DNA of 64,000 nt from Asterochloris sp. CNOR1 (Eukaryota > Chlorophyta > Trebouxiophyceae > Trebouxiales > Trebouxiaceae): positions 2,728,001 through 2,792,000 of the forward strand of contig OZ017749.1 in the NCBI GenBank assembly GCA_963969365.1. The letters run 5' to 3'. The notes below the pieces were generated by a model that saw only the letters and a list, made by a program, of their open reading frames with translations, was not told where the DNA came from and made no database searches. Below, in pieces: positions 1 to 64,000 of this stretch (positions within the stretch are counted from its first letter, which is position 1; each line of letters begins with the position of its first letter). Made by a program: the position numbers and the translations under genes.

Positions 1-29
1 AAAAAAACTGTGCTGGAGCTGGAGCTCAC

Positions 30-3000
30 CTGCCAGCGGGGGTCGTCCTCAAAGAGCTCTTTGACCTGGGAGAAGCGCATGTTGCGTGTGATGGCCTTGC
101 TCTCGTCCAGCATGGTCTCAAAGTCCTGCAGCAGCAACTGCGAGGTGAGATTGTGTCATGTGGGGGGGCCCTTAGGACTTGAATCAATCTTTGTGCTAGC
201 AGCTCTATTGCTGCTGGGCATATGACAGGGAGCCAGACAAGCCTCTGAGTGTGCAAACACCACCTTTGTGTAGCCTGCACATTGCACCTGGCTATCTCAA
301 CATCATGTTCAAAGGAAGGTGCACGTGTTCGAACACAGCATCTCCTTCACCCTCGCAGCTGCCAGATTGCACAACCTGCCACCTGGCAGGTCACCTGCCT
401 TGGCTTTGTCGCCGTCACCATACTGTCAGAAGCCACCGACGGGGCAGCAGGCAGTCATTGCTACATTTGCCAGGACCTGACATGGGCGACTTGAGCCTGA
501 AACACATCCAAGATAAATGGGCACCAGAAAGGCTTCCTCTCTGCTCGCCGAACCTCCTTGGACTTCTTTATCTTCATGCGCTCCTCCTCCTTCTCAAACT
601 TCTTACGCTGCTGTAGATACTCATTGAAGCACTGCTTCTTCTCCCCCAGCGATTTGAGCGCCTTATAACGCCGGTCGTTGATGATCAGGCGCATTGCATT
701 CTCCCAAGACCAGTCGCTGCCCACGCCTTTGCTGGTCAGCAGCTCCTTGAATGCGTCTTTTGCCTCTTCCTGCAGGGCGCAGCGCCAGCAATCTCAGTTC
801 AAACGTCACCAGGACATTGGAGGGCCCCCCTGCACAGCAGTAAAACCTTGCAGACCTGAGCACACCACAGCCGTTGTTGGTCAGCAGCACCTTGAGAAAG
901 CCTTTGCTCTTTGCACAGGACTGCTCACGAGAGCAGGCTGCTGCAAGTTTTTAGGAGATTCCAGTCCCAGGGTTTGTGGCACTGCTGCTGTGCTCTTCAA
1001 GCAGCTACCCTTGAAGCCCCTCAATGAGGCTCAAAGATGCCTCCACCACTGCCATCACCCCCAATGCAAGTTGGCCCTTATCTGGTTGCCTGGGCGCCTT
1101 CCTGGCCACTGCCAACCACGGCCTCCTGGCTACCCATCTAGGACAGTGTAGGTGTACTGCAGCTGGCACAACATAGTGGTCCTCACTAATGAGCACTGCC
1201 CCTGGGCTGCTCACGTTGGAGGAGTGCGTGTGCGTGTGCATTGTATGCAGCACAACCCACTGTATGTCACTACCGCTGCTGCCCCTCATCTTACACAGTC
1301 CAGCGTAAGCGAGTGCTGGCCCCTGCCTTGGAGGTCAAGATATTAGCTGCAAACCTTGATGGACGAGGTGCACTGTGCACAATTCCATGTGAATTACTAC
1401 CGCCGCTCCTCAACTGACTCACCACTGTGCTTGCCAGAAACCCTAACCTCCTCACCTTGGTGGAGTACATAAACTTGTCATCCTCCTCTTTGGTTTGCAC
1501 CTTCCCCAGCTCTCCCTCCACAGTGTTAATGACAGGGCCGCTGGGGAACACTGGCTCTGCCTTCACACCATTGGCCTGCTCCGCCTTGACCCCTGCAGTT
1601 GCGCCGGCAGCTCCTGCAGCCGTCGCAGCCGCCGCCGCCCTTGCAGCCACAGCTGCGGCGGCCACAGCCTTTGCCTGCACCGTGGGAGTATCACTTTTAT
1701 TATGAGCTGTGTACAAAAGACATTGGCAGGCGCCCTTGCTACCTGCGCAGCCACAGCAGCTGCTACCATAGCCGTGGCCTGCACATGCCCCTTGTCGGTT
1801 TGTTGAGAGGCCAGTGCCTTGTATAGGCATGTAGCTTGGTTGCAGCTGTTGTTTATCCCAGCTCTGGACACCCCAAGCACACACCTAGAACAGCGTACCT
1901 GTGCGGCAGCAGCTGCAGCCTCTGCGTCCTCCAGCTCCTTGGGCTTGACCCACCGGCTCTCCTACAGCAGCAGGCAGGGGCGTTGCTGTCATGCAGAATG
2001 TCATCCCTGCCTCTCCGAATTGCAACGTTTGAGTCAGCGCAAGCTGCATGCATTTTGTTACGAGGGCGCTTTCATGAGGCAACAACGTCAGTCACACCCC
2101 TACAAGCATCTTCAGACTTGGCTGCTTTCCCAAGCTGGCAGAGAAGTGCGGCATATCTGGTGTAGCTGTAGGTTCCAAACCTCGACCCCGCGAGCGACCA
2201 CCGCAACAGAGGACGACTCAGGCAACAGGCAGATGCTGACCTACATGTCGCAGCTGCACGCAGTGCAATGCAGTGCACCTGTCTGCAATGCAATGCAGTG
2301 GACCACCCAAGCAGGCCTTTCAGCTCAACAGTCTTGACTTAATGGTCATGCCAGAGGTCAAGACTGGTTCAGCAAGACACATACCTTGGTCTTCCGATTG
2401 TGGTAGTATTTGCGCCCGTCAGGGCTGGTGAACTCCTTCCAGTCTGACACAATGACATCTGGCTTGCCAGCAGCAGCAGTGACCGCCGGTTGCTGGGCGC
2501 TCGCTGCAGCAGCAGCAGCAGGCGCAGGGGAGGTGCCTAAGCTGGCTGGCGTGGCAGATGCCTGCAGGCCAGGGCAGCAGCATGCTGGCTTGGGACCAGA
2601 CTGCGGGAACCAACATGATGCAGGGCGCACTGGTGCAGGTCGCCAACTTGCAACGCCAGCAAATTGCAAGCAGCAGCCGATGCAAGCAAGGGTCCTGCAT
2701 TGGCTGGCGTAGCAGATGCCAGCAGGGCAAGGTAACTGCCTCTTAGGAAGACACCCTGCATTGTCAGTCGTACTGAATGGCATGCTGGTGCAGGGTGGCA
2801 CTGTGCAAGGCGCCTGATCGACATCTGTGGACTGACATGCATCAGCAAAGAAGATTCAGGCAGGAGAAGCACGCCCAACAGTGAGATCTGTGCTGTGGGC
2901 TTGGCCATCTCGCTCGAGGCTGCCTGAACCCAGCATGGTCCTGGGGAGAAGGCAGCCAACTGGCTGACATGTAGAGCAGTGAGCAGAGCAAGACGCATTG

Positions 3001-6408: not shown

Positions 6409-9297
6409 ATGACGATGCATTTCAACAGTCAGCAGCCCAGCAAACGACGCTGCATCTGTGCCAGCAGCTCTTTGCAGGCACAGCAGGTACTGTAACCTCA
6501 CAGTCCTGTGACATCATGCTCATGCTTGCGATTGCAGTGCATGGCTGGCCTGCTGTCCTGCAGCTTTTCATTGCCTTTCTGCACTGCTGCTACAGACGAC
6601 TGCATCTGTGCCTGGAGACGTCAGGCAGCCCACCACAGCAGCAGCCTCCCCTGCAGACTTGGATGCAGACGTTCTCATCGAGATGCGCAACGTGCACAAG
6701 TCCTTTGGCAAGAAGCAGATTCTGCGCGGCACTAACATCAAGGTCCGGCGGGGCGAGGCTGTCGGCATCATTGGAGGCTCCGGCACGGGGAAGTCCACCA
6801 CTCTGCGGCTTATGGCTGGCCTGTTGATGCCCGATAAGGTGCAGTTTTGTGGGAAAGCTGCGTGCAATGTCTGGCTGCCCATGCCAGACCAGGCTGCATT
6901 GCTGGCCAGATGCCCAGCAATGCATGTGCACCGCTGCAGGTTTGGGGCACGGCACATTGCACTAACCAGTCCTGCAGAGCCTGTGGGCACACTTGGCACT
7001 TATGCTTGGGTGTGAGCATTGCTGCAAGCTGTGGGCTCGCAGGCTGGTGCCAAGGAACATCTGCTTGGTCCATGTGGGCATTGCAGCGCCCGGATGGCCA
7101 GTCTGCTGGTGCCAGACGCAGTGACTTGTGGGGTCAGGCGGTTTGCGGCTCGTGGCTGGCCTGCTGCTGCTCAAGCAGGTGTCTCTGGGTGGACACTTCA
7201 CATGCCCGCGTGCCCTGTGACAGAAGCATCGGCAACCCTGTAGCCTCCTGCTTCTGCTGCACAGTGCGTGCCTGGCATTTGCAGGGCGCAGTGTGGATGG
7301 AGGAGCAGGTTTCACTGCTGCCCATCCGCGCTTGCCCAAGCTGACCAATGCCCAAATCACAATGGCATCTAGCCACGTGCCTGCCTGGCGGCGTGCACAG
7401 CATAGGCGGTGCACTCAGCAGCTGCACTGTGTATACAGTCGGCCTGGCTCAAGGGGTTGCTTCTGCTGTTGCCATGCCTCCGCATGCATTGCCTGCCTGT
7501 GCACAGCGATGTGCTGACTTACAAGTGCGCAAGGGCCCCAGGTCTCCCTGCAGGGCATCATCTCACAAGGGCAACCCTCTGCCTGTACAGAACTAGGTGC
7601 TGATTAAGTAACAGGATTGCAATGGCCTTGGTCTTTACGTCTTTGAGTCCTAATACAACGGCAACCTCCATCTTTGCAGGGCGAGGTCCTCATAAAGGGG
7701 CAGGTGCGCAAGGGACTCCTGTCAGATGACCCTGAACTTGCCCAGCAGCTCAAGGTGGGCATGGTCTTTCAGAACGGCGCGCTCTTCGACTCCCTCACCG
7801 TGGGGGAGAATGTGGGTTTCATGCTCTACGAGCACACCCAGCTGCCTGAAGAGCGTGTAAAGGTGAGCTGCCAGAAGTTGCTAAGCTGTGCGCTGTCTGT
7901 CATTCAGGGAGGTGCCTTAGCCAACATGAGCCAGGGCTGTCTGCGGCCAGCAAGCTGGGTGTACCCAGGGCAGTGGCTGTTGAGCATGTGAAGATGAGCT
8001 GCAGGGATGCAGGCACACTGTATGCCGTGTCACTGTGAGGGTAGTTGCAAGGGTAGCCTATGAGGCTGGCTGGCTGGGTGACACAAGAGCAAGGCGCAAT
8101 GGCATCTTGCATTTGCTGTGTCATTCTGACACCAGCCTTCCCGCTGCCGCATCAGCAGTGGCATCGAGGCCCAGCTTTCAAGCTACGCTGACAGCCAGTG
8201 TCGCCTCTCACAGAGTGGCCTGACACGTGTTTTCTTTGGTGCTGCTGCAGGAGCTTGTTGCCAGGAGCCTTGCCGCCGTCGGGCTGTCTGGGGTTGAAGA
8301 TCTGTTCCCTGGGGAGCTGTCTGGCGGCATGAAGAAACGAGTTGCCCTTGCTAGGGCCATCATTGCTGATGACGCCAAAGAAGGCCAGGACCAGGTGTGC
8401 AGATGTGTTTTGCTGCATAAGAGCTGTTGTGCATGCTGCACATAGAACAGGCTGCACCGATGCCACTTATCTGTCTCGCATTGCCATACACAGCTGCTAA
8501 CTGCCTGCTGACACAGTAGGCTGCCTTCCATTGCAGTGCTGTGCCTGGGCATTATTCAGCCTTGCAATCCCCACCCTGCCTGTTGAGTAACTGCTTTCAG
8601 AAGCAATCGGTGCCCCATCAAGCATGGCACATGACCAGCCCTCATCTCTCTACCTCCATGCATTCCCTGCCATGCTGGTGCAGGTCATCATGTATGATGA
8701 GCCCACCGCCGGATTGGATCCTGTGGCCTCCACAGTCGTGGAGGACCTCATACGCTCTATGCAAAGTACCCGTGCCAAGTCACAGAGCAATGGCGGTGCA
8801 AACAGCAGTCCCAAGGGGGCTATGCTGCCCTCCACTGGCATTGCCAGCTATATAGTGGTGACCCACCAGCACAGTACCATCAGAAGAGCTGTGGATAGGA
8901 TCATCTTCCTGCACGAGGTTTGTGGCTTTGTAGAATCTCACCTACCTCAGTTGCATGAAGCCTGGCAAGGAGGCTGTAATGCAGCTAGATGCTGCAAGGT
9001 CAAACAGGCACCATTTACTGAGTTGTTTTGGGATGCATGCCTATGTGCCGGCAAGACGCAGCAAGGACTCGTGAGGTGTCAACAGGATCACCATATCATC
9101 GCATGCACAAGGATCTTCTGCAAAAGATTGTATTTCACTGTGCCAGGTGGACGCTGCAAGCGCTCATGCTGCCCTGACTATGTGTGCAGGGCAAGGTTGT
9201 CTGGGAGGGCACCACAGAGGAATTTGATACCACCAGCGAGCCCATTGTTCGCCAGTTTGCGCAAGGCACTCTGGATGGCCCAATCAAATATACCTGA
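6409..9297 (+). CDS. TGD3: TGD3-like ABC transporter ATPase (chloroplast lipid import)
   Basis: ATP-hydrolysing subunit of the plastid inner-envelope TGD1/2/3 complex, the MlaF-like machine that imports ER-derived glycerolipid for galactolipid synthesis. Six exons join in phase 0: 6409-6486, 6596-6838, 7680-7862, 8251-8394, 8684-8917 and 9190-9297, giving 329 residues (Arabidopsis TGD3 is about 345). Visible motifs: Walker [10 protein letters not shown] (about residues 86-94), Q-loop VFQNGALF (Q138), signature LSGGMKKR (about 191-198), Walker [14 protein letters not shown] (about 217-229) and H-loop VVTHQ (H277). The N-terminus is basic and Ser/Gln-rich with few acids, fitting a transit peptide. 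The frame is open further upstream, so the exact start (ATG 6409) is inferred. A hydrophilic Ser/Gly/Lys insert sits between Walker B and the H-loop. Confidence 0.93.
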
Positions 9298-9517
9298 AGT
9301 GGCTCTGTGACTCTGTACAAGCATGTTCAAAGGTTCTTCTAAAAGGGCCCTCGACTCTGTAGTTGAATCTGCAGTGTTGCTCCGGTGCATCTAAGACTTA
9401 GGGCATGTACAGGGTGCACATCTTGCAGGCTGCATGGACTGGCATGCTGCTGTCATGGAGTGACTGCCAGTTATCTCAGGGCTGCACTGGCTGGCCAACT
9501 CCGGCTGACGCGCCCCC

Positions 9518-13689: not shown

Positions 13690-15545
13690 GGCACCCCTGT
13701 AAGTGAGTGCTCAGCTGGGAGCAATGGCCTGGCCCAGCTTCTGTGCAGCCAATACGTCTTAAAGCCTTTGCTAACACTGTGGCCCAGTGCTGCGGCACAA
13801 GTGATGTGCTGGGCAGTGGAAGAAGAAAAACAGACCAAGTCCACAGTTTGCTAGGAGGATCACTCCGCAGCTTTCATCAGCGCAATGATGCGGAAGCCAA
13901 ACTGGAGGCCCTCCAGCCTGTCACGGCAGAAGGTTATCTGCGTCCAGTGGCCATGCCAAAGGGACGAACATTGCTGTATCCATGGGAGAACAAGCAGGGA
14001 CACTTGGAGATCTAAGATCTTATTGCAACAGAGTGCTCCCAGACTGCTCTAAGACAGTCTGTCTGGCTGGACTGAATCTTGCAGGGATTGCCATTGGCGC
14101 AATGTGCCAAGATGAACAGGTGCCTGGCGTACTGGTGCTCTGTCCTCTGATGGCTGCTTGGCTCCTGGACTGCTGGCCCATGTGATACGGCTTGTGCAGC
14201 TCCCTGTCTGGTCGCGCCTTGGACGCTTGCTGCTTGCCTGCGCTTGATCATGTCTTGTAAAACCCTGAGGCTTCCCTTGTGCTGAGCTAGTGGAGTGATA
14301 GTGACTTGCAAGCAGGTGGCGTGCAGTGTTGTCAGCACCCATGTTGACAGACAAGTGAGCAAGCTATCTAGCCTTAGATGCCGCAACGATGCAGACCGCT
14401 ACATACAACTGCTGGAACGTGTGGGGCTCAACCAAGAGGCTGGCCCCACTGTGCAGACGTTGGCTTGCAGCCTGCACCGATTGGTGGGGGTTCCCAGCAG
14501 GAGTCCCAGGCAGCATTGCACTGTCTGTGCATCCGCAGGCAGGGCTGTGCCTTCGAGTTGCCACAGACCGCCACTCAGCTTGCCGCAGCAACCTGGCTGC
14601 TTATCAGGAGTTGAGGCTTGCCTGAACCTGCAGGCTGCTCTGCGCTTCTAAGGGGCTTGGGACAGACCCTCAACCGTTCTTCATTGCCATGTTGCGCCAC
14701 CACAGCACCTGCAGGGCGCCTAGGCTGTGACAGTAACTTGGCCGCTGAAGTGTGGAGGCAGGCAGCCCTGTGCTTCTGACAGCAGCCTGGTCGTTTTTGG
14801 CACCAGGGGCTGCACTACCATTCATAGCATGATGGGCGTGCAGTGTGCTTGCACTGCAGATATGAAGTGTCAGCCTGCCTGCACAGCATGGACTCTGTGG
14901 GCAGCCTTCACCATGTTTTGAGCTGGTCACACGTATGTTGAGGCCTGCCTCACAGAGTGGGGCCTGTGTCAGTAGTGGAGGAATATGCATCAGTTGCCCT
15001 GTATCTGATTGACAGGCGTCCACCTGTAGCTTGCACTATATGCTGCTCATCACCAGATCTGCTTGGCTGTCCAGAGCAATGCCAGCAGGCCAGTGAGGGA
15101 CCAGCCAGCGACTCGCAGAACTGTATTCACAGAGGCATTTGCTGCAGCTCCTAGTCGCATGCCACGCCTTGAAGGTCTGGCTGACAACATGCTCCTGTAC
15201 ACCAGCATGACGTGCATGACGTGCCAAGAGGTCTGCGTGGTCGTTGAACATCAAGGGGCAGAGGCCTGGTTGCTGCTGCTGCTGCTGCTCGCACAGCTGG
15301 GCTCGCTATTGGCCAGCAATGCCGCCGCCATGGTTGAGACGCAGCAAAGGCTGACTGCACATTTCAGTCTGACAGGCAGTGATTAACTCCTATCTATAAA
15401 TTTTGACGCAACAGCTTGGCAAAGTCTGACTTGGCTCACACACAGCCCGTTCAAGCAGGCCTGTTCAAGCAGGCAGCTCAAGCCACATAAACGCCCTCCT
15501 TCAAAGCCTCTGCCCCCAGCAGTCGGTTTGACCAGCGCCCTCGGC
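13690..15545. other. Intergenic region (1.86 kb) between divergent genes, containing an inverted ASG1 exon copy
   Basis: Must contain the promoters of the tetraspanin-like gene (-) and the ASG1-like gene (+). I find no convincing gene. A minus-strand frame at about 13960-13860 reads WHGHWTQITFCRDRLEGLQFGFRIIALMK before a stop and looks protein-like, but no further exon fits it. The clearest structure is at 15260-15375, an inverted copy of part of ASG1 exon 1 (listed separately). Confidence 0.4.
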
Positions 15546-15719
15546 ATGACTGCAAGCCCGCTCTATGCACGGCTGAGCCAGGAGCTCGGCCTGAAGCCCA
15601 AGGCACCCAGTCCCAACCTCGCCGGTGCTGAAATGTGCAGTCAGCCATTGCTGCGTCTCGACCATGGCGCCGCACTGCTGGACTACGTCAATAGCAGGCT
15701 GAGCGAGCACAGTGACTGT

Positions 15720-15752
<33 letters not shown>

Positions 15753-15760
15753 GCCACAGC
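15260..15760. repeat. Inverted repeat: reverse copy of ASG1 exon 1 upstream of the gene
   Basis: The segment 15326-15368, read in reverse complement, matches 15627-15669 inside ASG1 exon 1 at 40 of 43 positions. The similarity continues with small gaps, including the CAG/CTG run (15270-15290 versus 15722-15748), so each arm is about 110-130 nt. The spacer between the best-matching parts is about 258 nt and includes the start codon region. If transcribed through, it would fold into a long hairpin. Confidence 0.85.
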
Positions 15761-18658
15761 CAGTCAGGCTGGGGCCGCGCCGCTGCTGTGCACAGTGCCC
15801 AGGGCAGCAGCTCCTCTGCTGAAGGCAGTGTCAGTGCCTGTGCAGCTGATGTCTGTGGGCGGCCAGTGGCAGGTGCGCTTCACTTATCTGACATGCGACA
15901 TGCTGCGGCGACTGTGTCTGCATCTGCGAGCATGCTGCCTGCCGTGCTGTGCACTTCTTTGCTGACTGCTGTGCAATTCTGATTGCCCAGTGCTTTGTCC
16001 AGAACGCTATGCTGCCGCTTAGTCTGACGCAGCTTATTCATCTGCAGAGGGCCGCCAACGGCACAGAAATCACTCTCAAATTCCTGTACTCCAAGAAAAG
16101 CCTGGCCATCGAGGCCCGCCCAGTTGGAGGAGACCGCAAGAGCCGCATGGATGTGACATGGGCAGACCTGAGCGCAATGAGGCTTCTTCTCACAGTGAGC
16201 TTGATTTACTGCTTGGTGGCTCACAGATGCTACAAAGGGTTGTCTTTCAGCATCAGTTTCAGCTTTGTGCACATCAACACCCCTTGGCTTACTTATATTC
16301 TTTTTGCCTTCTGACGACTGGGCAAGCTTGTCGTCTGTTTCGTGGGGGTCTAAGGCCCTTGAATGACTGGTGTCAGCCAGGTGGGAGCTGGCAGCTGTGG
16401 GGCTGCCGAAGTCTGACACATACAAAAGCCTACTCTGCCTTCGCTGCTGCCTGCTCACAGGCTGCTGTGCTTGCAGGCTGAAGACTTAGCTGTCCTTGAG
16501 CTGGACATTGGCCAGCCCCCAACGTTCAAGCATGAGCTGCCACCCCAGGCACGTCGCCACACCCTCTGGAGCACCTGTGACGATTTCACAGCTGGTGTCA
16601 TGACAGCTACAAGGTCAGCAACTGAAAGCTTGACAAGTTGCGGCTGAGTAGTCGCGTGCAACCCTTTCCTGCTCCTCAGTCTGTCGAGAGCTTGTCTGCT
16701 CAGCCTTGGCTGCCCTCTGCAGGACGTTGAGGCTTGTTTGTGAAGCAGGCATGCTGGATGGTCCCATGGAGAGCCTGCTGTCGTGTGATGAGAGGCTGGC
16801 GGAGCTCACTGCAAGTGGCGGCCTGCCAACAGCCGCAGGCCCGCTGCCTGCTGACGCTGCCAACAGTCCTTTAGCCACGGCTGAAGGTGAGGGTGTTGCC
16901 AGTGCGCAGCCAGTGTGCAGCCACACACACATGGCCTCCTTTTGGAAGTGGGGGCAAGATGCTGATGCAGCATCCTCCCACAGGTCCCCAGCTTGCTTCA
17001 TGGGTGACCCTGCACCCCTCTGCATTAGCTCTTCTTGACATCTGAGCAATGCAGCCTGCAGTCCACCCCTCAGCACCTGTTGCGCTCCTAGCAGATGAGT
17101 CACCTTACAACGTGTACCCTACCATGCAGGCATTCCTATCGCGGAGGCGGCCGCCCTGCCCAGGACACCTGTCAGCAGGTCGGCCTCCTCCTCCGCGCTG
17201 CCAGCAGCAGCTGCACAGGCAGCTGCGCCCCTGAAGGCCCCTCCCCAGCAGCAGCCGCAGCAGGCGATGGCTCCCAAGCCGTGCCTGCAGAGGCTGCCCA
17301 GCCTGCCCAGCCTGACCCAGCAGGACAGCCGGCAGAGCACCAGCAGCCTGCAGGCGCTGCCTGCCCTGGACCGGCCGGCCCCTGCTGCTGGTGCTGCGCC
17401 AACGCCACCAGCACCAGTCTATGAGCCACTCCCCACGCTGCCCTCCATGGGCTCCTCCACTCTGGCGGACCACCTGCTGCCTGTCCTGCCGCAGCTGCCC
17501 AGGCAGCAGCAACCGGTGCAGGCGGCCACACCCCCTCAGGTGCATGCACTGGGCCTGCAGGAGCAGACCCACCTGCTGTCACAGCGCGGCTCCCAGATGC
17601 TGCAGGCGGCCGAGGCTGCCCTGCAGTCCCTGGCCTCCATTGGCAGCACCCCTTTCATGGCTGCTGCGCAGCCCCAGCAGGTGTACACGCAGCTGCCCCA
17701 CCCTGCTGTTGCTGCTGTCTCACCACAGCAGCAGTATGTGGCCCTGCCACGGGTGCCGATCACGCCCTTTGCGCAGCAGTCGTTCCAGCAGCTGCCTGCG
17801 CTGCCAGAGGTTGGGGATTGGGTCCCAGAGCTGGACATGGGCATGGAGGCAGGGATGGGGGTCTTCTTCACTCCAGGTAGGGCTTTCATCTCTGCTTGCT
17901 TGTGTGTTCGGCCTTGTGGCTTGGCAACCCTACTGAGTGCTGCACTGCCAGTCTGGCATCTCTCAGCAATCACCCAGGAGTGTCGCACGTTTGGCCAGGT
18001 CTGACCATGAGGCCAGGTCTGACCATGATTAGGCGGCCCCAAAAGGGGTTGTGCTACATACGGCTGACGTTTCTCCCCTCCCTGCTGCAGGCGCCCATCA
18101 TGCTGCGGCGGAGCACTTTGGGGCACCCCTGCTGCCCAGCGACCAGCTGAACAATGCAGTGGGCTGCTGCAGCAGCACCCAGGCCGGCACCACCCCTGAG
18201 GGGCCCACAGACAGCAGCAACAGCTGCTCAGACATGGGCCGCTCCTTCCTGGATGACGAGGCGGCCTTTGACCAGCTCTTCCCCAGCATTGCCCATGATG
18301 GGGATGACTTTGCTGGCAGCGACTTCTGCATGGATGGCCCCCTCCTGGGCGAGAGCAGCTCTATGTTCAACAATACTCAGCTCGAACAGCAGCAGGTGGG
18401 CTCATGAATGAGGCTGATTGGTGCTGCTAGCCTGCCAGTTTGCCATGATTGCAGACATTTGCTTCACTGCCTGCTCCGCTCATGTCAACTGCTTTGGAGC
18501 TTCCTCAGAGGTTTGGACCCTCCACTTAAGCTCCCTTCATCTCATTGCTGCAGGAACCCACCTCTCGCCGCCAGCTGCAGTCGAAACTCAGCGTCAGAAA
18601 CGGCAACATCTCCAAAAAGCAGCTCCGCCGCCATGGGCATCTGCCAGTCTCAGTCTGA
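15546..18658 (+). CDS. ASG1-family (Altered Seed Germination 1-like) nuclear protein
   Basis: Seven exons join in phase: 15546-15872, 16048-16194, 16477-16613, 16723-16886, 17130-17876, 18091-18395 and 18554-18658, giving 643 residues. The conserved core is in exons 2-4: ITLKFLYSKKSLAIEA, MDVTWADLSAMR, DIGQPPTFKHELPPQARRHTLW, DDFTAGVMTATR and CDERLAEL. This pattern matches the plant ASG1 / At4g30780 family (W-x-D, QPP.F..E..PQ.R.HT.W, DFT.G). The family is nuclear and stress- or germination-linked in plants, with no established biochemical activity. The rest is low complexity: a poly-Ser run from (AGC)n at 15722-15748, a long Pro/Gln/Ala-rich segment in exon 5, an acidic FDQLFPS patch, and a basic end (SKLSVRNGNISKKQLRRHG) that could be a nuclear localisation signal. 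The ATG at 15546 is the first in frame, but the frame is open upstream. Confidence 0.8.
15722..15748 (+). repeat. (AGC)n microsatellite coding poly-Ser in ASG1-like exon 1
   Basis: An AGC trinucleotide run of about eight units encodes a Ser tract. A shorter reverse copy (CTG)n lies at 15270-15290 as part of the inverted repeat. Length is likely to vary between strains. Confidence 0.85.
17994..18029 (+). repeat. 18-bp tandem duplication in ASG1-like intron 5
   Basis: The unit GGCCAGGTCTGACCATGA occurs twice in tandem inside the intron between exons 17130-17876 and 18091-18395. It has no coding effect. Confidence 0.85.
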
Positions 18659-19479
18659 TGACCAAGGCATTGCAAGACCAGATCAGATTCAACCAGTCCC
18701 CGCGCAGCCACAAGTGGAACACAGCCACGCCTATTAGTGCCTGGCCCCATATTTGCAGCCGCATGAACCTGGCCCAGGTCATAACATGGCTTCCCCTCCC
18801 TCAAATCTCCACCTTGGAACAGTTTAGTCCACAAAAGCTCCGCAAACTGTAGTCCTTGCGCCCCAAACGGCCCCCAAATGAGAAGCAATCCGCAGATACC
18901 AGGTCTCCACAACCCCTCCTGCCTTGCATGTGCTGTGATAAAGCACACCTACTAACATCCTCCAAGGAACCACAATGAGACACAATTTTTTGCCGCGAAG
19001 GCCACCCATTTTTTTGGCCTTCCATTTGTTGTAACATTAGAGCAGACTGTGCTGCTAGAGCCCATCTTAGCATGCGTTTACACTTCACTGGAAGGCAGGG
19101 GCCATTGCGTAAGGAGGGCAAAATTTGTGCTTCTTCAGGCACGCACTCCCAGAGACAGATATGAAATGGGTCTGACAGGAAGTGAGTGAGCGTCAGCGAA
19201 CAGGTCAGGCAGGAAGCAGCACATTCTATGCTCTGCACTGGGGCCCACACAAATCACTTGCTGCGAAGGGTGACTGCTGGGCACGTGCATGAGCAAGCAT
19301 GCTGTGCACCTGGCGGCAAGGTCCAAGCGTGGCCGTGACAAATCTGGGCAGTTAATTTGTTGACCTGAAGTCAAGCTGACCATGGCATTGCACATTCTGC
19401 ATGTGGCAGCAAGTACCAAGCGCTCGGCAATGACCAGTCATGCACATGACAGCGAGATCCGGAGCGTGGCTGTGACAGA
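18659..19479. other. Convergent intergenic region between ASG1-like and MGD1, with decayed copies of the MGD1 3' end
   Basis: Holds the 3' ends of two convergent genes. No gene is seen. Two degenerate copies of the MGD1 C-terminal coding sequence lie at about 19298 and 19389, spaced about 92 bp apart and from the real terminus at 19481; the first matches 23 of 27 positions over CATGCTGTGCACCTGGCGGC and onward. The rest shows no clear structure. Confidence 0.5.
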
Positions 19480-46087: not shown

Positions 46088-48866
46088 ATGGAGCTGCCCA
46101 GCCATTTCAAGCTACACCTGCTGGACCAGCAGGAGCATGTTCAGCACCTCTCCTTGCTAGAGAATGCCTATGTTGTTGGGCTGGATGCAGAGTGGCAGCC
46201 AAAATCAGGAGGACAGCCCAAAGCTGCTCTCATTCAGCTGGCGATTCATACACCCCAGTCAGGAGACCACGTCCTCCTGCTAGTGAGTGTCTGAGCTCAT
46301 GCCAACCTCAGAAGCTGCCAGGGAAGTTCTCAGACTCCATGTTCTGTTGCCAGGACATGCTCACTCTGCCAGTTGGAGAGGTGCGCAAGAAACTTCAAGC
46401 CCTGTTCAGAGACCAAAACATCCTGAAGGTGCGGCAAAATCTCAACTTTCAGGTACCTGTGCGACAGCGACATGCTCCTCAACAAGATGCATGTTGAGTG
46501 CAGGTCGGCTATGGCCTGGCAAATGACCTGTGGGCTATTGCAGCCGCCATAGGCGCAGAAGGAGCAGGCTGTGTTGCTGTCGTGCAGCCCCAGGTTGATG
46601 TCGCGCGAGTGCACAGAGAGCTCAGGCACAGGCAGGCTCTGGACAACAGCAAGGTGGGCCGTTGATTGGCTTGCTGGGTACCCATGCACCTGCACGGGTC
46701 ACAGATGCGAGGAAGCACCTGCTGCTGACCCAGTTGAGAGTGCTAGCAGCATGGCCCCTGAGCTGTCTACTTGTGCAGGGTGTGCCCATGGGGCTGGCAG
46801 GCCTGGTGCAGTCTGAGTTGGGGCAGGAGCTGGACAAGACGCTGCAGTGCAGCGCCTGGGGCAAGAGGCCTCTCAGCCATGAGCAGGTGCGATGACACTA
46901 CATTGTATGGTGACAACGGCGAAGCTGTGCACGTGCTTTCCCTTCTGACTGGCCTCCAGCCTCTGCGGGTTGCAGTTGCATTGCGCGGCGCTAGATGTAG
47001 CCTGCCCTGTCCCTTCTGACTGGCATGCTGTCTCTTCTGGGTGCAGCTGCAGTACGCAGCGCTTGATGCAGTCTGCCTCCTGCAGCTGCTGGCCCACATG
47101 GTCTCAGTGGCACAGCCCCCACGTCACAGCTTCACCTGTCCTGAATCAGGTGCAGCAGCAGGGACTGAACAAACCCGTCAAAGCCAGCAGGGCAGCGCTC
47201 AGAGTGCCCAGGGTCCACCACAAATAGCTCCAGAAGCAGTGGTAGGCAGTGCCGCACACCAGAAGGGTCCTGAGGGCCAGCAGGCTGCCACCGGCACTAC
47301 AAAGGCACCTTTGTACAGCCCTGTTCAGAATGACGGCCAATGGTGGGAGGTACTGTCTGCGGGCCAGGCCAGCGCGGTAAGCAAGTTCTTAATGATCAGC
47401 AGCAGCATACAGCTGAGGGCGTGATCTCTGTGATGCAATGATTCACGTGATGTTGAGAAAGCAGTGGATGCTAGTCCCGGGCATGCAGGCTTGATTGATT
47501 GATGTACTCAGGGCAGAGGTGGTCGTGTAAGTGCATCAAGACTGTTATGCCATTTGCGGCACAGGTAGTCCAGCACTGGGCCAGCCGCCTGGACCTGGTG
47601 GCAGGGGCGCCACAGGAAGGCAGAAGCAGGCCGCCCCGGGACACATCCCTGCGGATGAGCAAGGTCGAGCGCAGAGCTCTGCGGAAGCAAAATGAGCGGC
47701 TGCACATGAGCTCCCCAGCCTATGGTGGGTCCTTGCTGCCAATCCACCCAGCCAGCATGCTTTTTGCATTCAGAGAACGCCTGCAGATGAGTGCCTCACC
47801 TTGAGTTGCTACCGGGAGCAGGCTTGCTGTGATGGGAGCTTGCCTGTCGTGGGCATGACGGCAAGCAGCTGAGGCAGATGGCTCAATCAAACTGTTGATT
47901 CTGCAGGCAGGCCCAGACACATACCCTGGGCAGGGCAGGAGGACGCAGAGCCTCGCTTCGTGTGCGATGTGATGACAGAAGGGTTGGCCAGGCAGCTGCG
48001 CATGTGTGGTGTAGATGCAGCAGCAGTGACAGACCTCCTGACAGGGGGCCCCAGGCACATGGTCCACAGGGCCCTGGTGGAGGCTGCTGAGACAGAGCAG
48101 CGCGTGGTGCTCACCTGTGACAGGTTATTCATTACAGCAGGCTACACAGACCAGGTGCGGTCCCTTCTGAGACTCTCTGTGAATGTTGTCACTGCTGTGC
48201 ACAAAGGCAAGCCCGCTTGGAGGTTGCTGCACTCCTGAGCCTGTGTGTGTGGATAACCGAGCATTCTGGCAACCATTGGCAGATGTCCTGCAGGCCTACT
48301 TCGTGAGAGGGAATGACAAGCGTGCCCAGCTCAATGAGGTGCTGGACGCTTTCAACATCCAGGTGTTCTTTTGGCTGGTGGCTTCAGGCCAGTGTGTTCA
48401 TTGCTTTGGCCTGGCCCATTAGGCGCACATGCTGCAGCCTCTGAATGTTGCCGCTTTTGACTCCAGGTACAGGAGGATGAGCTCCTCAGCCGATGCCAGA
48501 AGTGCAATGGCGAGTTCGATCCGACGTGAGGGCACTAATGCTTAAACTGCCGATTTGGTAACTCTATGCACAATGTATGCAGCAAGTGGCAGTGACTTGA
48601 TTGGCTAAGGGTGTGCCCTCTGCAGGCCAAGGACGCCTGAAGAGTTGACACCCGACTCTGGGGTGCCGGAGAGCGTGAAGGAGCAGCAGGTGGACTTCTG
48701 GGTCTGTGCCCGTTGCGGCAAGGTTTATTGGCAGGAAAGTAGCTGTCCAGCTGTTGCGCTGTTGATGGCCAAGCTCTGATGCAGTATGATGCTGCTGCAG
48801 GGCAACACATATGGCAAGGCAATGGCACGCATGGCTGAGCGAGTACTGGGCATTCGCCTACAGTGA
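46088..48866 (+). CDS. Mut7-like 3'-5' exonuclease with C-terminal Mut7-C RNase domain
   Basis: DEDDy-type exonuclease (EXD/Mut-7 group) fused to a Mut7-C domain. Eleven exons: 46088-46282, 46354-46428, 46504-46653, 46779-46886, 47047-47376, 47565-47724, 47907-48154, 48294-48362, 48467-48525, 48626-48734 and 48801-48866, giving 522 residues. Exo motifs: VVGLDAEWQ (D33, E35), VGYGLANDLWAI (D98) and the third motif YAALDA (Y179, D183). A low-complexity linker of about 100 residues follows. Mut7-C starts RFVCDVMTEGLARQLRMCGVD and holds two CxxC pairs (SRCQKCNGE and CARCGKVYW), probably a zinc site. Homologues process small-RNA or tRNA ends, but the substrate here is unknown. The last splice is odd: the conserved VYWQ is followed by GA, not GT; the only phase-correct GT donor (48723) would delete VYWQ. 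Confidence 0.85.
46940..47081 (+). repeat. 71-bp tandem duplication covering the start of Mut7-like exon 5
   Basis: The unit 46940-47010 is repeated at 47011-47081. CCCTTCTGACTGGC is identical at 46940 and 47011, and the acceptor CAG recurs at 46973 and 47044. The 31 nt after the acceptor match at 24 positions, so the upstream unit is a decayed copy of the catalytic-motif exon edge. Confidence 0.85.
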
Positions 48867-49182: not shown

Positions 49183-52100
49183 ATGAGCAGCGTGATTGCC
49201 CATGGTGGCCCTGCGGACTCAGGCCCTGGCACAGCCCTCTCAGAGGCTCGCACTGAAGATGCCTCTGCAGATCCGCTCAGCGAGGCCCAGAGCTTTGGTC
49301 AGAGTCAGCCCGTGAGTTTGATTGGCCATGCTGTGCCGCAAGCCACTTCAGCTTCTGGGCCTTTTCCCCTCATGCCCGCTGCATGGGGAGCGGAGCAGCA
49401 GCATAGTGCTGGCTCCATGCGCGGCGCATAAGGCGTCATTGCTTTCAAGCGCGGACCAACATGCCTCTGTTCCCTGCAGCATCCTGCCTGGAGCCAAATC
49501 TCGGCCGCACTGCAAGGCCCACCCCGCCCAGCAGGCTCAACAGCAGCACCTGCACACTCGGCAGCAGATGACAGTGCTCTGTCGTCAGTAGACCCTGAAG
49601 GTGAGACCCACTACTGTCGCCACAAACTGTCATCCCATGATCCAGGGGTGCAACCATTGACGTGCACGGCAAGCTGTGGTGCGATTTGAGGAAGCTTGCA
49701 TTGCCAGCCAGAAGTGCTCACAACACTTGAGTCTGCTCACTGCCAACCCCCTGGAACCCCTCCCCTACCCTCCTTCCCTAGGTCACGGCTCCAAGCTCAG
49801 CCTGGTCCGATGAGTCTGCTGCGCTGCCTATGCAGGCGAGCACTCATCCCTGCCCCAGTTGCGGGCTGAGCGCTCCGCTCTAGCAGGTGGGCCTCAGGGC
49901 CTGCCACTGGCACCCGCCGCAGGCCAGCACCAGCAGGGGCCCCCAGCAGGTGCCTTCGTCCTGGAAGGCGCACCTGCTCAGCCAGCACACCAGCACCAGC
50001 TGCAGCAGGAGGAGCTGTCCATGCTGCACCGTGCCAGCAGCGTGGTGTCACAAACGAAAGGAGGCCCCAAGGGCACATCCCATGAGGGGACACCAGCCTC
50101 CCGGCATGCTGCAGACAGGTCCCCCTTTGCTCAGGGGCGCCCGCGAGACAGCAGCCCGCAGGCCAGCCAGGCTGGCAGCCAGGCACGCCCTGCGTTGACT
50201 GGCTCTCGTACTCACTTTCACTGCTTACGTTCTGGTGTCATTGCCCTAGGATGCAATGCTGCAAGTTGCTCGCTGTTCACAGCTTTACGGTAGAGCCAGG
50301 GTCATATTGATGGCTTGAGCAGCCTTTTGATCGGCAACAGCTGAGCTTGAAGGTGTACTCCAAGAAATACACGTTCCTGCTTTGGTTCTCAGCTGCGGCA
50401 CAATACTCTCGTCAGCTGCAGGTCATGGACCAGTGCATTTGCCTGCATGCTGGCGTCCCGCCTGGCGCAGAAGCCCTCCTCCTGCATGGCCATACCACTG
50501 AGGCATGTCGTCTCTGCATGCAGGACCAGGGGAGCCCAACCAAACGGCGCCGGCTGATGCCCACCTCCCCAGCAGCGCATAGCCTGGTCCAGCAACGGGG
50601 TCTGCCACTTCCACAGGTCACAGCTGCAGCGCCCACACCCCCCAGCATCGTGCAGGGCGGCCAACGGCACACATCGCGCCTGCAGGTGGGGCCTCAGCCG
50701 CGACTGTGTCTTGTGAGACACCCCTGTGTAGCTTGCAGACTCACAGATGCAGGGTGGGCCTCGGATGCTTCTTTGTGTAGTAAGATACACTGTGTGGCTT
50801 GGAGGTGCCCCTGGTGCCATGCACGCCGGGGGGACCATCTTGCAGCTCAAGCCAGCTATGGAGGAATGGTCTACAGCCAGCGCTTGAGCTACAGCTACAG
50901 CGGGCGGGGACCTCGAAGTCTCTTGTCTGTCAGTCCGTCAGACTTCTTGATGCCCACTGGGGATAGCCTCGCCGTTCCAGACAGCTGCAAAGGAATGGGT
51001 CGAAGCCAGCACTCCCAGCAGGCTTTTTGCACATGCTGACTGCCATTAATGGGGCCCACTGTCTCGAAGACAGCATTTGCAGGGGCAATCTGCTGGTCAG
51101 AAGATCTCGGTACTGTGTGCAGGTGGGGCAGAGCTCTGCCGCTGGTGCCGCCGTGGTGGGTGGGCATGCGACATGGGCTGGAGCACGTGAGTCTGGAAGT
51201 CAGCCGCTGCTGCAGCCTGCGCTCTCCCTGGGAGCCCAGGCTGCCTCCATCGAGGCGGTGCAGACTGGAGGGGAGGATGTGGATGCAGACATGCACGACG
51301 CTGGCGAGGTACAGGCCCCTTTAATGGGCAGGCAAGCCATCGGGGCTTCCTGGGGCCACCAGGCTCAGGGGGCGGCTTCGGTGCACTCAGGCAAGGGCCC
51401 ACGGCAGACAGCGCGGCATGCTGCAGCCGCTCAGGGGGCCGGCTCGGTGCACTCGGGCGAAGGTCCACAGCGGGCAGCAGGGCCCTCTGCAGCGCAGCAG
51501 TCGCTGGGGCCTGCAGCAGCGGCCCTCTTGCAGGGGCGGGGCAGCTCCACACTGCACCATCGCTCGCTGTCGCCCCCCAACCAGCACTCTGCTCAGAGCC
51601 GGGGGGAGACGCAGGTGCACCCTGGGCAAGGCGCAGGGGCCCGAGCAGTGCCTGCCGGCAGCAGCGGCAGGCCATTCACTGAGGTGTGTGCTGGAGACAG
51701 CAGTGAGCATCATGCCAGATTCCCACTCCACAAGTGACGTGCCGCCCGGCACCATGCACCTCTCTCATCTGCACCGCACGGCAGCTGCGGTCAAGAGGGC
51801 TGGTGGTTGCTTTGCTGCAGTGCTGCAGCTGAAGCGGAAGCAGCTGACCACAGAGACATGGCAGTGGAAGCTGCAGCCTGGTGATGCAGTGTTCTCGGCG
51901 CGCCCAGAAGCATGTGGGCACGACCCCTGGGCACTAGCCTGCCCGGCAGACGTCAGCTCACGATGACACTGCTGCCTGCAGGGGTTGGAGCACCAGGGCT
52001 CAATAGTGCATGGCTCCCTACCAGCACAGGAGCATGTGGGCACCACCCCTGGGCGCCACCCCTCCCCGGCAGCACTGCGCCAAGCAGTGCGGGGTGACCT

Positions 52101-54842: not shown

Positions 54843-55177
54843 CATGTTGGCCAGTGGTTTTTGAGCATCACAATGCTGAGCAAGCTTGGGCCAGGCCCAG
54901 TCAGTTTGATGTGACTCTGTTTGCTCATTGAGTAAGCTTCACGGCTGAAACATCAGCCATCCTGTTTGCTTCTACATCAGGACAGTTTGTTCAGGTACAG
55001 TATACTGCTTGGCTACTTGTTCAAGCATGTTCAAATTAATTGTTGACCGCAACAAGAGGAGAATTCAGGGGCTGCATATGGTCATTGATGCACCCTCATC
55101 ACTGGAAGCACAAGATTGGTTCCCTGAGCATGTGCTGGATCAGGAAACCAGAAGTGAGATGGCCTGAAATGCTGAAG
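54843..55177. other. Convergent intergenic region
   Basis: 335 bp between the stop codons of the low-complexity gene (+) and the DNAJC17-like gene (-). AT-richer than the genes (for example near 54900-55040). It holds the two 3' ends; no gene or repeat is seen. Confidence 0.4.
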
Positions 55178-57536
55178 CTACACCGCATGGTCCTCATCAG
55201 CCTGCATCTGTCTAATGACCTCAGCTCGTTCAGCAGCCTGGCGCAGCTTCATAAGAGTGACATCTTCAAAGTCTTTATTGCCAAAACCAAAGCCTTTGCC
55301 AGGCAGCACGCTACTTTGGGATGCTGCTGGCTGCTGCTGGGGCATGTCGGGGAAGCTGCTGGGCCTGGCGCCGAACACGCTGGCTCCCGGGAAGGAGCTG
55401 GGGCGTGCTCCAAACACGCTGGACGTGGCAGGCTGGGCTGCCGAGCCGCAGCCACTGGCTGTGGCAGCAAACGCAGGCTGTGCCGCCGAGCCAGTACCAG
55501 CACCATTGGCTGTGGCAGCAAAGGCAGGTCGCGCTGCCAAGCCCACACCTGCCGCAGCGACGGCGGGCTGGGAGGGCACAGAGCCAAAGGGGTTGCGTGG
55601 CGGAGGCCGCAGGCCAAACCTGGTGAGGCCCGCGGGCCCCCCCCTGACGTCCTCGCGGTCGGGGTCTTTGACAGGACTGGAGGGCGGCGTGACAGCGGGC
55701 ATCCTAACCGCGCTCGGCCTGACGCTGCCTGCCTGCTCCTGCCCACCCTCTGGCAAAGCATCCAGGCCACTGCTGCTGCTGCCTGGTTGACCTGTCACCG
55801 CAGCGGCAGCATCTGGTGCTGCAGGGGCCACCTTCGAGAGAGGCACAGTCTGCAGAGGCTCCTGGAGGTCCCCATTGACCGCCTCGGCAGCTGCGATGGC
55901 CGCGTCCAGGGTGCTCATGACCACCAGCGCGCTGCTGCTCCTCTTCTTCCCCGCTTTCAACACAACATCCTCCACTCTGCCGTGCCTCTCAAAGATGCAG
56001 CGCAGGCTGGCGGCATCGTGCTGGGCGCTGCCCTTGTCCCAAGACACCTGCACAGGGGCAGTGTGGGACTGCATGGGGCACACGAGCAGGGGCTCTGGCT
56101 GGCTTTGAGCAGGTGGGTGTGGGGGAGCAGGCCCTGTGAGCATTGTGCAAAGTGGAGCCCCACCATGAGTAGATTCAGGCAGTGTCCATGCCTGAATACT
56201 CAGCAAAGCTGGTCCAAGGTAAGATGCACCAAGCAGCGGCCCTTTGATGTTCACAGGGGCCTCACACAAGTATGCGCGGGCAAGTTGCGAGACAGCTGCT
56301 GCAAAGGCAGGCAACAAGCGGCGGGAGCATGCCTTCAGGGTCCGCAGGAGCGCCTCGGTCATCTCAGGCACCACTTTAGGCGCCCGGGCGCCTGCCGTGC
56401 TGGAGCTCGACCCCGACTGTGCAGCTGGGGGTTGCGGCATGTAGTCGGCAGCCGTCCCTGCATCTGGGTACCAGGCTGCGCCGTGTGCGGGGCCGCCGTG
56501 AGCTACAGCCCTGTGCCTTGCCATCTGGGCAGACTGCTGGGCCTGGCGCTCGGCAGCCTGCTTTCGCAAGCGCTCCAGCTCACTCTGCAGGGGCACGGTG
56601 GGAGAGGCTCAGTGACTGAGTGCCTGCTGCAATGATTGACTGCCTTTGCAGATGCCGCACCTCGACCTGCAGGGGCCACAAGGGAGCACTCAGCGGTGCA
56701 CTGGGTAGCTGCTCTGCCTCACCAGCAACAGGGTGGCTGACGCACACCCACAGCCTTTCAAGGAACTATACTGGATGCCAGATGCCACCTGCTTCTGGAG
56801 CTGGGCCGCCCCGCGGCCTGCACTGAGGGGTAGCACCGGCTGCATGCTGTGCCCTTGGTGCTGGATGCATGGCAACTTCACACAGGCAAGCCTTGCCGGC
56901 CCCAGCAGACCTTGCAGCCCACCTTGAGGCGACTGGAAGCCTGCTGCTCAGCAGACCGCTCTGTCTGCCAGGCCTCTTCCCTCTTTGCCAGGTCCTGCTG
57001 CATCTTGCGGCGCTTGTCGCTCTGCCCTGCCTGGCGGGCCTGCCGTGCTGCTTGAGCCCTGCAGGTAGACAGAGACTGGCTTTGTGGTGGAGCCTGCACA
57101 TCCCAGGCACGCTCGCCACCCGAAAAGTGGCTTTGCACAATTGCTTATGCTTGGCTCCCACTGCAGTGCGGATAGCTGCGCACTGGCAGCCAGGGGTGGC
57201 AGACTGACAGAAGCAAGGGAATGCATGCCTGTGAAGATCGTCCAGGGCTGCTCTGGCCTGGGCATCTGACAGCAGCTCGTACGCCCTCTGGATGAGATTG
57301 AACTCTGCGGCAGCGTTGGGGTTGTCCCGCTGCTTGTCAGGATGCTTTTTGAGGGCCAGCATTCGAAATGCCTGCAGGAAGGGTGAACAGGAGCACATAC
57401 ACATCAGAAATTATGCTGCACTCCATCCACAGGTAAATGTCTGTACCTTTTTGATGTCTGCATCTGTGCTCTTGCTGCCCTCCTCCAGCCCCAACATAGC
57501 ATACGGATCCTGCTGCTCAGTCCAGACTTCTGCCAT
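55178..57536 (-). CDS. DNAJC17: DNAJC17-like protein: J domain, coiled coil, RRM
   Basis: Spliceosome-associated co-chaperone family. Five exons: 57536-57447, 57371-57229, 57058-56923, 56584-56333 and 56047-55178, giving 496 residues. The J domain opens [21 protein letters not shown] and carries HPD in [13 protein letters not shown] (H40), followed by a basic coiled coil ([19 protein letters not shown]), an RRM ([46 protein letters not shown]), and a C-terminal helix ([24 protein letters not shown]) that is a hallmark of DNAJC17. Between RRM and tail lies an algal insertion of Ala/Pro-rich repeats, including two copies of [11 protein letters not shown] and three AAQPA units. Two introns need GC donors: AG/GCATGC after 57229 and AG/GCATGC after 56333; phase and conservation support both. 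Confidence 0.88.
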
Positions 57537-57755
57537 GCTTCCCTGTTTCTCCAAAGAGATGCCCTCGCAGGGCTGGGCTGCTGAGCCGTGCCAGATGCAG
57601 TTCTGGCGCTACTTGTCTTTCTTGGGTTTGACCTACACCTCCCGCAGGCCCATTCCTTCTCACCCCCTAGCAGCTTGCCCCTTACATTCAACACCCCTGG
57701 CCTGAGGGATTGGAGGGCAACTCGCAGTCAGCGGCTGTAGGGCAAGGGGGACAGC
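57537..57755. promoter_or_regulatory. Bidirectional promoter of DNAJC17-like and CFAP20
   Basis: Only 219 bp separate the two divergent start codons, so both 5' UTRs and core promoters must share this stretch. No TATA box is obvious. It is CT-rich near 57645-57680. Confidence 0.6.
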
Positions 57756-60077: not shown

Positions 60078-60354
60078 GAGCGCGGGGCTTGCTCAGCTGA
60101 GTGGCCACCCACAGCTCTTCCCAGCTTGCAGTGCTCGACCATGTCAGCCTCATAGACTCGCTGCCGATGGCTTCTGCAGCAGAACTGGAGCTGACTTGTA
60201 TTGTCTGAACCTTAATCATCGGCTGAATAGATGGAAGTGCTCCCTTGCTTGTATTCACTGTGTCTCTCAGCAGGTTTTCAAGACTGACAAAGTGTCATGT
60301 GACACACAACCACAGGAGGCTCATTGCTCAAGGGCAGGCCACCGTCTGTGGTTG

Positions 60355-63300: not shown

Positions 63301-64000
63301 GGCGCCCACCCCTACCCTGCATCTTGTTTTGTCGGCCACTCTTGATCAGGCCATGATGGAGGCTGCTCTGCAGAACCCTAATTATCCAATCCTCCTCCCT
63401 ACATATGATTGGGCTGACCATCCTGAATGTGGGTGCTGTGAGGGAACTGTAGTGGCTAATCCTGGAGATGTGTGCTGCACCTCGGCCGGCAGGTGGGTGC
63501 AGCAGGGAGGGCGCCCCCAAAACCTTGCAGCTCCAAGCAAGGCATGGGGCCGCCCCTGAGGCAGGCCCCAGATGACTGTCCCAGCAAGCCCAGTCTCCAG
63601 GACCTCCCACCTGGTGAGCACCGCAAGCCCCGCCGGATGGGGAAAGTTTCAGCAGCCAGGCCTTGCCCCACTGCAACCAACATGACAGATGCCCAGACTA
63701 GTTTGCCCCACATGGGTGAGCACGACCTGGCCTGGCCCCTGAGGGCATGGGCTGCAGCAGCCAGGCCCACTGCATGAAGCGCTTCTCTGCCCTGTCTGCA
63801 AGCAGATCCTGCCGACACCACAAACGGGAAGTCACATAGCCAACCTGCATGGTGAGGACGATCTGGCCTGGGCCCCTGGGCGAGGGGCGCAGCAGCCAGG
63901 TCTGGGTGTCATCCTTGTCCAGCAGCTCCACAGCATCAGCCACAGACACATTCCTGAAGCTAGGGTGGAAGATGGGACGCTGCACGAGGTTGTCCCGGTT
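60355..64000 (-). CDS. SPT6: SPT6 transcription elongation factor, C-terminal part (5' end beyond window)
   Basis: Histone chaperone and elongation factor; the tandem SH2 domain binds the phosphorylated linker of RNA polymerase II. Exons read in phase: 64000-63845, 62917-62729, 61907-61825, 61555-61441, 61235-61083, 60852-60732 and 60518-60355. The first begins NRDNLVQRPIFHPSFRNVS, the start of SH2-1, with the phosphate-binding Arg in WLLRPSPRGPGQ. It continues with EQYEDIDDLIANFITPYLDHV, then SH2-2 (YDMPGMFYIGKLL, REAFTVNPNGFWFRRE, TIEHLLDRFKKNP). The tail is Gly/Tyr/Pro/Gln-rich and ends NGTWALQQIVSYQQEVPPPPPD, resembling the GW-containing tail of plant SPT6L, although only one GT-W is seen. 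The stop is 277 bp from the convergent CFAP20 stop. The 927-bp intron 63844-62918 contains a decayed copy of the exon 64000-63845 edge. Confidence 0.93.
63700..63903. repeat. Decayed 136-bp-offset copy of an SPT6 exon edge
   Basis: About 55 bp from 63710 (TGAGCACGACCTGGCCTGGC and onward) resemble 63846-63900, which is the 3' part of an SPT6 SH2 exon. In the copy the 5' splice site sequence is destroyed. Confidence 0.75.

Follow-up and report, generated by a model that had tools for sequence, protein, structure and literature searches.

The introns of this stretch of DNA carry short, decayed copies of the exon boundaries next to them, and the question which they raise is whether such copies record the way in which introns become longer. 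An earlier note on this DNA had proposed that introns grow by local tandem duplication across exon-intron edges, after which the spare splice site is lost under selection. To our knowledge, the growth of introns has been less studied than their origin. The 64,000-nucleotide stretch (the window) comprises bases 2728001-2792000 of contig C4 from an assembly of 56.4 Mb and 21 contigs. It was analyzed together with its two 10-kb flanks and with two 100-kb samples, C1 and C2, taken from one further contig each, giving 284 kb in total. Gene models were obtained with a hidden-Markov gene finder, which was trained on these 284 kb alone with loosely seeded splice signals. Unaided, it learned a strong acceptor (CTGCAG/G) and a strong donor signal (CAG/GTGAGC) and predicted 715 introns with a median length of 211 bp. 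Pieces of the predicted proteins match Pfam WW and FF domains (PRP40-type), an SMC-type ATPase, MGDG synthase and CFA20 in the window, and further matches were obtained to SPT6 (window), RNR2 (C1) and HEN1 (C2). No RNA family matched the window at gathering score. The genes have introns, and the genome is plant-like, probably that of a green alga. Errors of the gene finder blur all counts given below: an exon of the Mut7-like gene near 47037 went unpredicted, and decayed copies were taken for exons in HEN1 (47965-48012) and probably in SPT6.

The copies described by the earlier note proved to be largely sound. With query borders redrawn close to the original ones and partners within 450 bp, eight of nine named places scored above all of the approximately 365-390 control placements of the same query, namely PRP40, SMC6 (two places), SPT6, the Mut7-like gene, the low-complexity gene, the MGD1 flank at 19298 and the inverted copy at 15326-15368. 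The remaining copy, at 19389 in the MGD1 flank, did not stand out from its controls (P = 0.16) and may have been clipped by the redrawn borders. A blind self-comparison of the window at E ≤ 1e-3 yielded 10 pairs, none of which has an offset above 504 bp. Six of these pairs are named places (2511/2669, 15257/15628 in inverted orientation, 27082/27172, 46936/47007, 51902/52024 and 63715/63851), and the second SMC6 pair, with an offset of 211 bp, surfaces in the more sensitive scan described below. The range of 71 to 211 bp given before for the offsets holds for the confirmed direct cases. In window coordinates, the features are the following:

2511-2581, minus strand: real acceptor edge of a PRP40-like gene, source copy (intron 2562-2754, exon 2385-2561; pair offset 158; WW and FF domains in the spliced product)
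2669-2739, minus strand: decayed copy of this acceptor edge within the PRP40 intron, with CAG changed to CTG
15257-15367, plus strand: copy of 15628-15761 in inverted orientation; no longer inverted pair was found in the 284 kb
19299-19324, minus strand: copy of an edge predicted close to the 3′ terminus of an MGD1-like gene (partner 19482-19507)
20835-20990, plus strand: 37-bp tandem array of about four copies within the predicted intron 20767-20991
22970-23177, minus strand: predicted acceptor edge with decayed copies at +146 and +310, AG lost in both
27082-27149, minus strand: decayed copy of an SMC6 donor edge, located within the intron at an offset of 90 bp, GT kept
27172-27239, minus strand: real donor edge of the SMC6-like gene (exon 27217-27405)
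32971-33017, minus strand: second decayed SMC6 copy, offset 211, CAG/GTGAGC changed to TGG/GTGAGG; called an exon by the gene finder and overlapping an inverted repeat (32996-33042)
33182-33228, minus strand: second real donor edge of the SMC6-like gene (donor base 33197)
46936-47006, plus strand: acceptor-edge copy in an intron of the Mut7-like gene, a complete 71-bp tandem with its TTGCAG acceptor kept
47007-47077, plus strand: real acceptor and exon start of the Mut7-like exonuclease (exon from about 47037, missed by the gene finder)
51902-51950 and 52024-52072, plus strand: copy pair in the low-complexity gene, offset 122, the exonic member of the pair being unassigned
63715-63765, minus strand: decayed copy of an exon end of SPT6, lying 136 bp downstream of it in gene orientation; a part of it (63727-63751) was called an exon, probably wrongly
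63851-63900, minus strand: real exon end of the SPT6-like gene (exon 63845-64021; homology to SPT6, PDB 7oop, extends to the exon end)

Judged by gene models and homology, the matches in PRP40, at both SMC6 places and in the Mut7-like gene extend across an exon edge or border on it; the manually joined Mut7-like product shows a match to DNA_pol_A_exo1 up to residue 124 of 125. The SPT6 match ends at 63851, about 6 nt inside the real exon end. That the copied splice site is mutated in three cases could be upheld for PRP40 only. The GT or AG is kept in the copies of SMC6 (27216; 33197), the Mut7-like gene and the low-complexity gene (51914).

Copies of this kind are by no means restricted to the named places. 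An ungapped scan of every offset from 30 to 629 at a score of at least 18 gave 85 direct pairs in the 284 kb (26, 23 and 36 in the three stretches), compared to 2 in two control bands of equal width. Local shuffling, which preserves word content only approximately, yielded none or one pair in each of nine runs (six approximately dinucleotide, three trinucleotide in 300-bp blocks). The other three of 12 runs, a triplet shuffle in 150-bp blocks, were set aside; they returned 35, 9 and 46 matches at score 18, which is believed to result from faulty looping in short blocks. After overlapping pairs had been merged to the best one, 63 independent pairs were retained at score 18, of which 57 have an offset of at most 218 bp within the scanned range of 30-629. 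Inverted pairs, searched over a wider span (4-1300), numbered only six at this score, and a single locus of the window (15257-15761) accounts for four of these. Self-comparison of the C1 and C2 stretches likewise gave exclusively direct pairs (6 of 6 and 8 of 8) with offsets of 86-179 bp. With regard to an introner-type family of shared intron sequence, no self-match beyond 504 bp was obtained at E 1e-3 when each of the three stretches was compared with itself. Apparent peaks near 100 and 150 in the offsets of donor and acceptor copies were also considered, and periodic or nucleosome-sized spacing was rejected on a period test (P 0.27-0.63). Altogether, recognizable duplications touch 69 of the 715 predicted introns, i.e., about one in ten, and no pair at score 18 lies in the approximately 19 kb of intergenic calls. 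The signal is hence genuine and strong, and each of the three sampled stretches shows it.

The preference of the copies for exon edges is a different matter. One could imagine that duplication is directed to exon-intron edges and that the spare splice site is subsequently removed by selection. At first sight the placement of the 63 independent pairs fits such targeting, as 32 of them touch an edge compared to 21.6 under random placement (P 0.0035), with similar outcomes at higher cut-offs (28 of 51 versus 18.9 at score 20; 15 of 26 versus 10.8 at score 24), and nine pairs have an edge in both copies where 2.8 are expected. The other classes comprise 19 intron-intron pairs (21.6 expected), six exon-intron pairs (14.0 expected) and six exon-exon pairs, which are not below their random expectation of 5.7. 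Yet, with the bases of the splice consensus masked, the excess at edges is gone (16 of 46 pairs versus 16.5 expected; 21 of 53 versus 18.4 at score 16; 12 of 36 versus 13.9 at score 20), and the class in which both copies contain an edge drops to three versus 2.3 expected. This masking hits edge pairs harder than others. A mask of like size placed on non-edge pairs lets 52% of them survive, the score being lost in 48% of the trials, so that the fair expectation is about 11 rather than 16.5. By our own arithmetic there may thus be a residual, statistically non-significant excess of about 1.4-fold. Moreover, copies of exon edges would be more visible than others, because one copy of such a pair is held by selection and would therefore stay recognizable for longer.

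In a second test, 40-nt queries were compared with their own intron, the splice consensus being excluded, at a score of 13 and with other introns of like length as control; this comparison was restricted to the 562 of 715 introns with at least 100 bp. At the donor side, the last 40 nt of the exon are copied in 24 of 466 cases (5.2%; 0.9 expected), while successively deeper windows are copied in 2 of 383 (0.7 expected), 1 of 304 (0.5) and 1 of 217 (0.6). At the acceptor side, the first 40 nt of the exon are copied in 11 of 467 cases (2.4%; 0.7 expected) and deeper windows in 2 of 385 (0.8), 1 of 321 (0.3) and 1 of 242 (0.8). Exon windows 40 nt further in are thus copied in about 0.5% of cases, whereas windows within the intron itself reach 2.1-2.5% (13 of 524 with 1.2 expected, 11 of 524 with 1.4 and 8 of 380 with 0.4). 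Donor ends therefore exceed intron windows about twofold in the full set, which is in favor of targeting. With 30-nt windows at score 12, the donor side gave 21 of 477 (1.25 expected), followed by 6 of 423 (1.5), 0 of 364 (1.2) and 2 of 309 (0.95). Among introns with strong splice signals, donor ends (13 of 229, 0.35 expected; next window 3 of 213, 0.65) are copied about as frequently as intron windows (10 of 231, 0.4 expected; 5 of 174, 0.95), the signal at acceptor starts being weak (3 of 223, 0.6 expected). Reverse-complemented queries (5 of 466, 2.35 expected; 2 of 467, 2.2) and targets displaced by 600-900 bp (9 of 466, 8.75 expected) served as controls; a mild excess was seen when the target was shifted 300 bp to the upstream side of the donor (13 of 466, 7.05 expected). 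Over the 284 kb, edges are therefore clearly set apart from exon interiors, and to a much lesser degree from introns. Copies of exon interiors in the adjoining intron are nearly absent.

Duplications inside exons do exist, and nearly all of them keep the reading frame. They account for seven of the 85 direct pairs, and the offset is divisible by three in six of these seven as compared to 26 of the 78 other pairs, a bias which may be partly overstated as the gene finder demands open frames. Exon bases at least 150 nt away from an edge are covered to 3.6%, in all cases by four exon-exon pairs.

For loss of the spare splice site, the second element of edge targeting, no significant sign of selection was seen either. 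From the remaining identity of the copies 8.8 losses would be expected among 27 spare sites, which were not collapsed although several pairs share one edge, and 11 were found (P 0.24). In the set of alignments obtained independently of splice signals, 36 of 45 spare sites are gone, which at face value agrees with targeting, as do the six losses among the 10 alignments which reach the border of the query (own count). Most of these alignments, however, stop before the edge. Taking both elements together, it appears rather improbable that duplication is aimed at exon-intron edges.

Since their formation the copies have decayed throughout. Most of them are 70-90% identical to their partner, and none of 34 cores with at least 40 nt reaches 95% identity. 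Mismatches between exonic and intronic members fall on all three codon positions (73, 67 and 91 of 369, 374 and 370 sites), and purifying selection for a coding role of the copies in introns was rejected on these grounds. With 117 transitions and 114 transversions, the two kinds of change are nearly balanced; a repeat-directed C-to-T mutation process was rejected, as the spectrum is not skewed in this way.

How such copies accumulate is best seen in two introns outside the window. In RNR2 (C1), an intron of 654 bp separates an exon with the terminal residues ...VEGIHFSG, its last base being 15057, from the following exon, which starts at 15712. When the two exons are joined, their product shows a gap-free alignment over the junction with the RNR subunit M2 B (PDB 3hf1), and within the intron the exon end together with the donor is matched at +152, +298 and +430. 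In the first two units the intron part following the donor is also alike, as judged by eye. In HEN1 (C2), the exon ends in ...KLRNTDHRFE, and the product joined to WTRGDF aligns without a gap to Hen1 at the junction. Here, copies are located at +108 and +216 and a fourth unit aligns weakly; the first copy was called an exon by the gene finder. Its core covers 66 of the 108 bp, and 36 nt ending in the first bases of the donor are identical. In both introns, the end of the preceding exon is thus repeated two to three times in decayed form.

Several copies have retained a good donor (RNR2 GTGAGC; GTGAGG at 95908; another intact one at 79469 in C2), which, like the stretch of 36 identical nucleotides in HEN1, might hint at a function as alternative exon ends or as decoy donors under selection. 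With changes spread across codon positions and only a slight excess at the third one, and with RNR2 and HEN1 products aligning to their solved homologs without the extra pieces, a functional role of the copies is highly improbable.

A further possibility is that a tandem duplication of an exon piece carrying AGGT gives birth to an intron, in which case the offset should equal the length of the intron. One clear case was found in C2 (8412-8500), where an intron of 89 bp coincides with an offset of 89 and both splice sites lie on matching positions, and there are a few weaker matches at registers within 12 bases. The exact register at score 16 is, however, seen in only 1 of 699 introns, and the offsets of exon-end copies are mostly far below the intron lengths. 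As a general cause this kind of intron birth therefore fails, and that it accounts for the copies described here is hardly conceivable.

What remains of the original proposal is that the copies are local, direct and partly tandem and that a copy straddling an edge would lengthen the intron, as in RNR2 and HEN1; after masking, no significant preference for edges is left. We consider it probable that the copies are remnants of ordinary short, local, direct duplications, which are tolerated where splicing hides them, with no process aimed at splice sites. Short direct duplications, in tandem or nearly so, would arise along genes, mostly within about 220 bp. Those placed in introns, or straddling an edge in such a way that the extra piece of exon is spliced out, would be tolerated and would then decay. 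Each straddling event would extend the intron by one unit and leave behind a decaying copy of the exon end, and repeated events would build up ladders like those of the RNR2 and HEN1 introns. This reading is directly supported by the locality and direct orientation of the pairs, by their distribution over introns, edges and exons, by the decay at all codon positions and by the two ladders checked by homology. Judging from sequence comparison, each individual pair would go back to a duplication and selection would have shaped which of them survived. As for the molecular cause, slippage or mis-processed fragments of the lagging strand would fit the direct orientation and the short range.

Some observations do not fit smoothly with duplication in tandem. 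Complete units are found at the short offsets of 37, 71 and 86 bp and the RNR2 unit is partly filled, while most longer offsets have flanks near background. For offsets of 90-240 the median ratio of core to offset is 0.34, and the better flank outside the core averages 43% identity compared to 40% in controls (38 pairs). Simulated whole-unit tandem copies reproduce such weak flanks only at a divergence of at least 0.2 per copy. Furthermore, exon copies are rarely deeper than about 45 nt, which according to our own arithmetic is less than simple tandem geometry predicts. The reading as tolerated duplication is also countered by the exon-exon pairs, which are as frequent as under random placement, by the coverage of exon bases far from edges, by the weak acceptor signal among introns with strong splice signals, by the mild excess upstream of the donor and by the lack of pairs in intergenic calls. 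The unfilled offsets, the shallow exon parts and the scarcity of young copies leave room for captured, spaced copies as a second source. Repair of a break would in such a case copy 30-100 bp of neighboring sequence into a site about 100-150 bp from the source, with a spacer in between (repair-mediated capture), and cores which are shorter than their offset and have flanks near background, as in HEN1, would follow directly. Vertebrate repair-mediated duplications described by Pace et al. (2009; PMC2671141) include four donors made of partial exons and introns. The distances given there peak at about 1.2 kb with a median copy length of 147 bp, although the peak is, according to the authors, a possible artefact of the method, pairs within 50 bp having been excluded. 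Capture should also paste pieces from the interior of exons into introns, where they are nearly absent, and the ladders as well as the complete short units indicate tandem events. As the main source of the copies, capture is therefore unlikely.

Short local duplications are a known kind of event, of which the present copies are a clear example. Thomas et al. reportedly described "doublets" in 2004, short local duplications with identical or nearly identical copies, and Messer and Arndt are said to have reported in 2007 that recent short insertions are tandem duplications. Common to those observations and ours are short, direct and close copies far above chance; theirs, however, as cited in PMC2671141, are identical or nearly so, whereas here most copies are 70-90% identical and reside in a compact, plant-like genome.

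Three further systems are comparable. Vertebrate repair-mediated duplications (PMC2671141) are also local, include introns, partial exon and intron pieces and splice sites, and comprise copied exons without coding constraint; the pairs described here differ by being direct, often adjacent and mostly confined to offsets of up to 218 bp. In the potato RdRp case (PMC4974935) a tandem duplication likewise crossed exon-intron edges, but there a new intron was created, while here, except for one case, an existing intron was lengthened. In regulatory DNA of flies, too, similarity between neighboring sequences has been traced in general to local duplication (PMC3188502); the signal there is motif-sized and extends up to about 70 bp, compared to cores of about 20-120 nt at offsets of up to 218 bp, mainly in introns, in this study. 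Among the titles and abstract openings listed for the gain and expansion of introns, for introns of green algae and for short duplications, a selection which leaves most subscription journals outside, there was no description of exon-end ladders in algal introns.

A far-reaching view would be that introns in this lineage lengthen largely through repeated duplications of up to about 220 bp which include their own exon edge. Many introns would then be palimpsests of exon ends, mostly too decayed to be seen, with intact decoy donors that could feed alternative splicing. We regard this as speculative and doubtful. For annotation the copies are of immediate relevance, since decayed exon ends within introns can be called as exons, as happened in HEN1 and probably twice in SPT6. 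In the simplest reading, short direct duplications would be tolerated in this organism wherever splicing hides them, including those which reach into the last approximately 40 nt of an exon.

Within the RNR2 intron of sample C1, one of two 100-kb stretches analyzed from other contigs, the end of the upstream exon recurs at three positions, and the donors behind these copies have all retained GT at their start.

Sample C1 (G000:C1:1000001-1100000), 15058-15711: RNR2 intron, upstream exon end matched at +152, +298 and +430

The acceptor consensus CTGCAG/G was very strong (T 0.90, G 0.94, C 0.96) in the gene finder self-trained on the 284-kb sample, which comprises the window, its 10-kb flanks and samples C1 and C2. 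In the window, a predicted intron holds a tandem array of about four copies of a 37-bp unit (20835-20990), and the decayed copy of an SMC6 exon edge is straddled by an inverted repeat of about 81% identity (32996-33042).

Wholly exonic duplications occurred at seven places in the 284-kb sample, with an offset divisible by 3 in six of them. One of these places is:

Window, 55452-55543: wholly exonic duplication

The approximately 19 kb of this sample called intergenic contained no local pairs (similar segments 30-629 bp apart) scoring at least 18, although a portion of this size should have yielded a small number.

The two ends of one predicted intron are copies of each other:

Sample C2 (G000:C2:1000001-1100000), 8412-8500, minus strand: predicted intron of 89 bp, ends mutually copied

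As the spacing between these copies equals the intron length exactly (89 bp), this intron is a candidate for an origin by tandem duplication.
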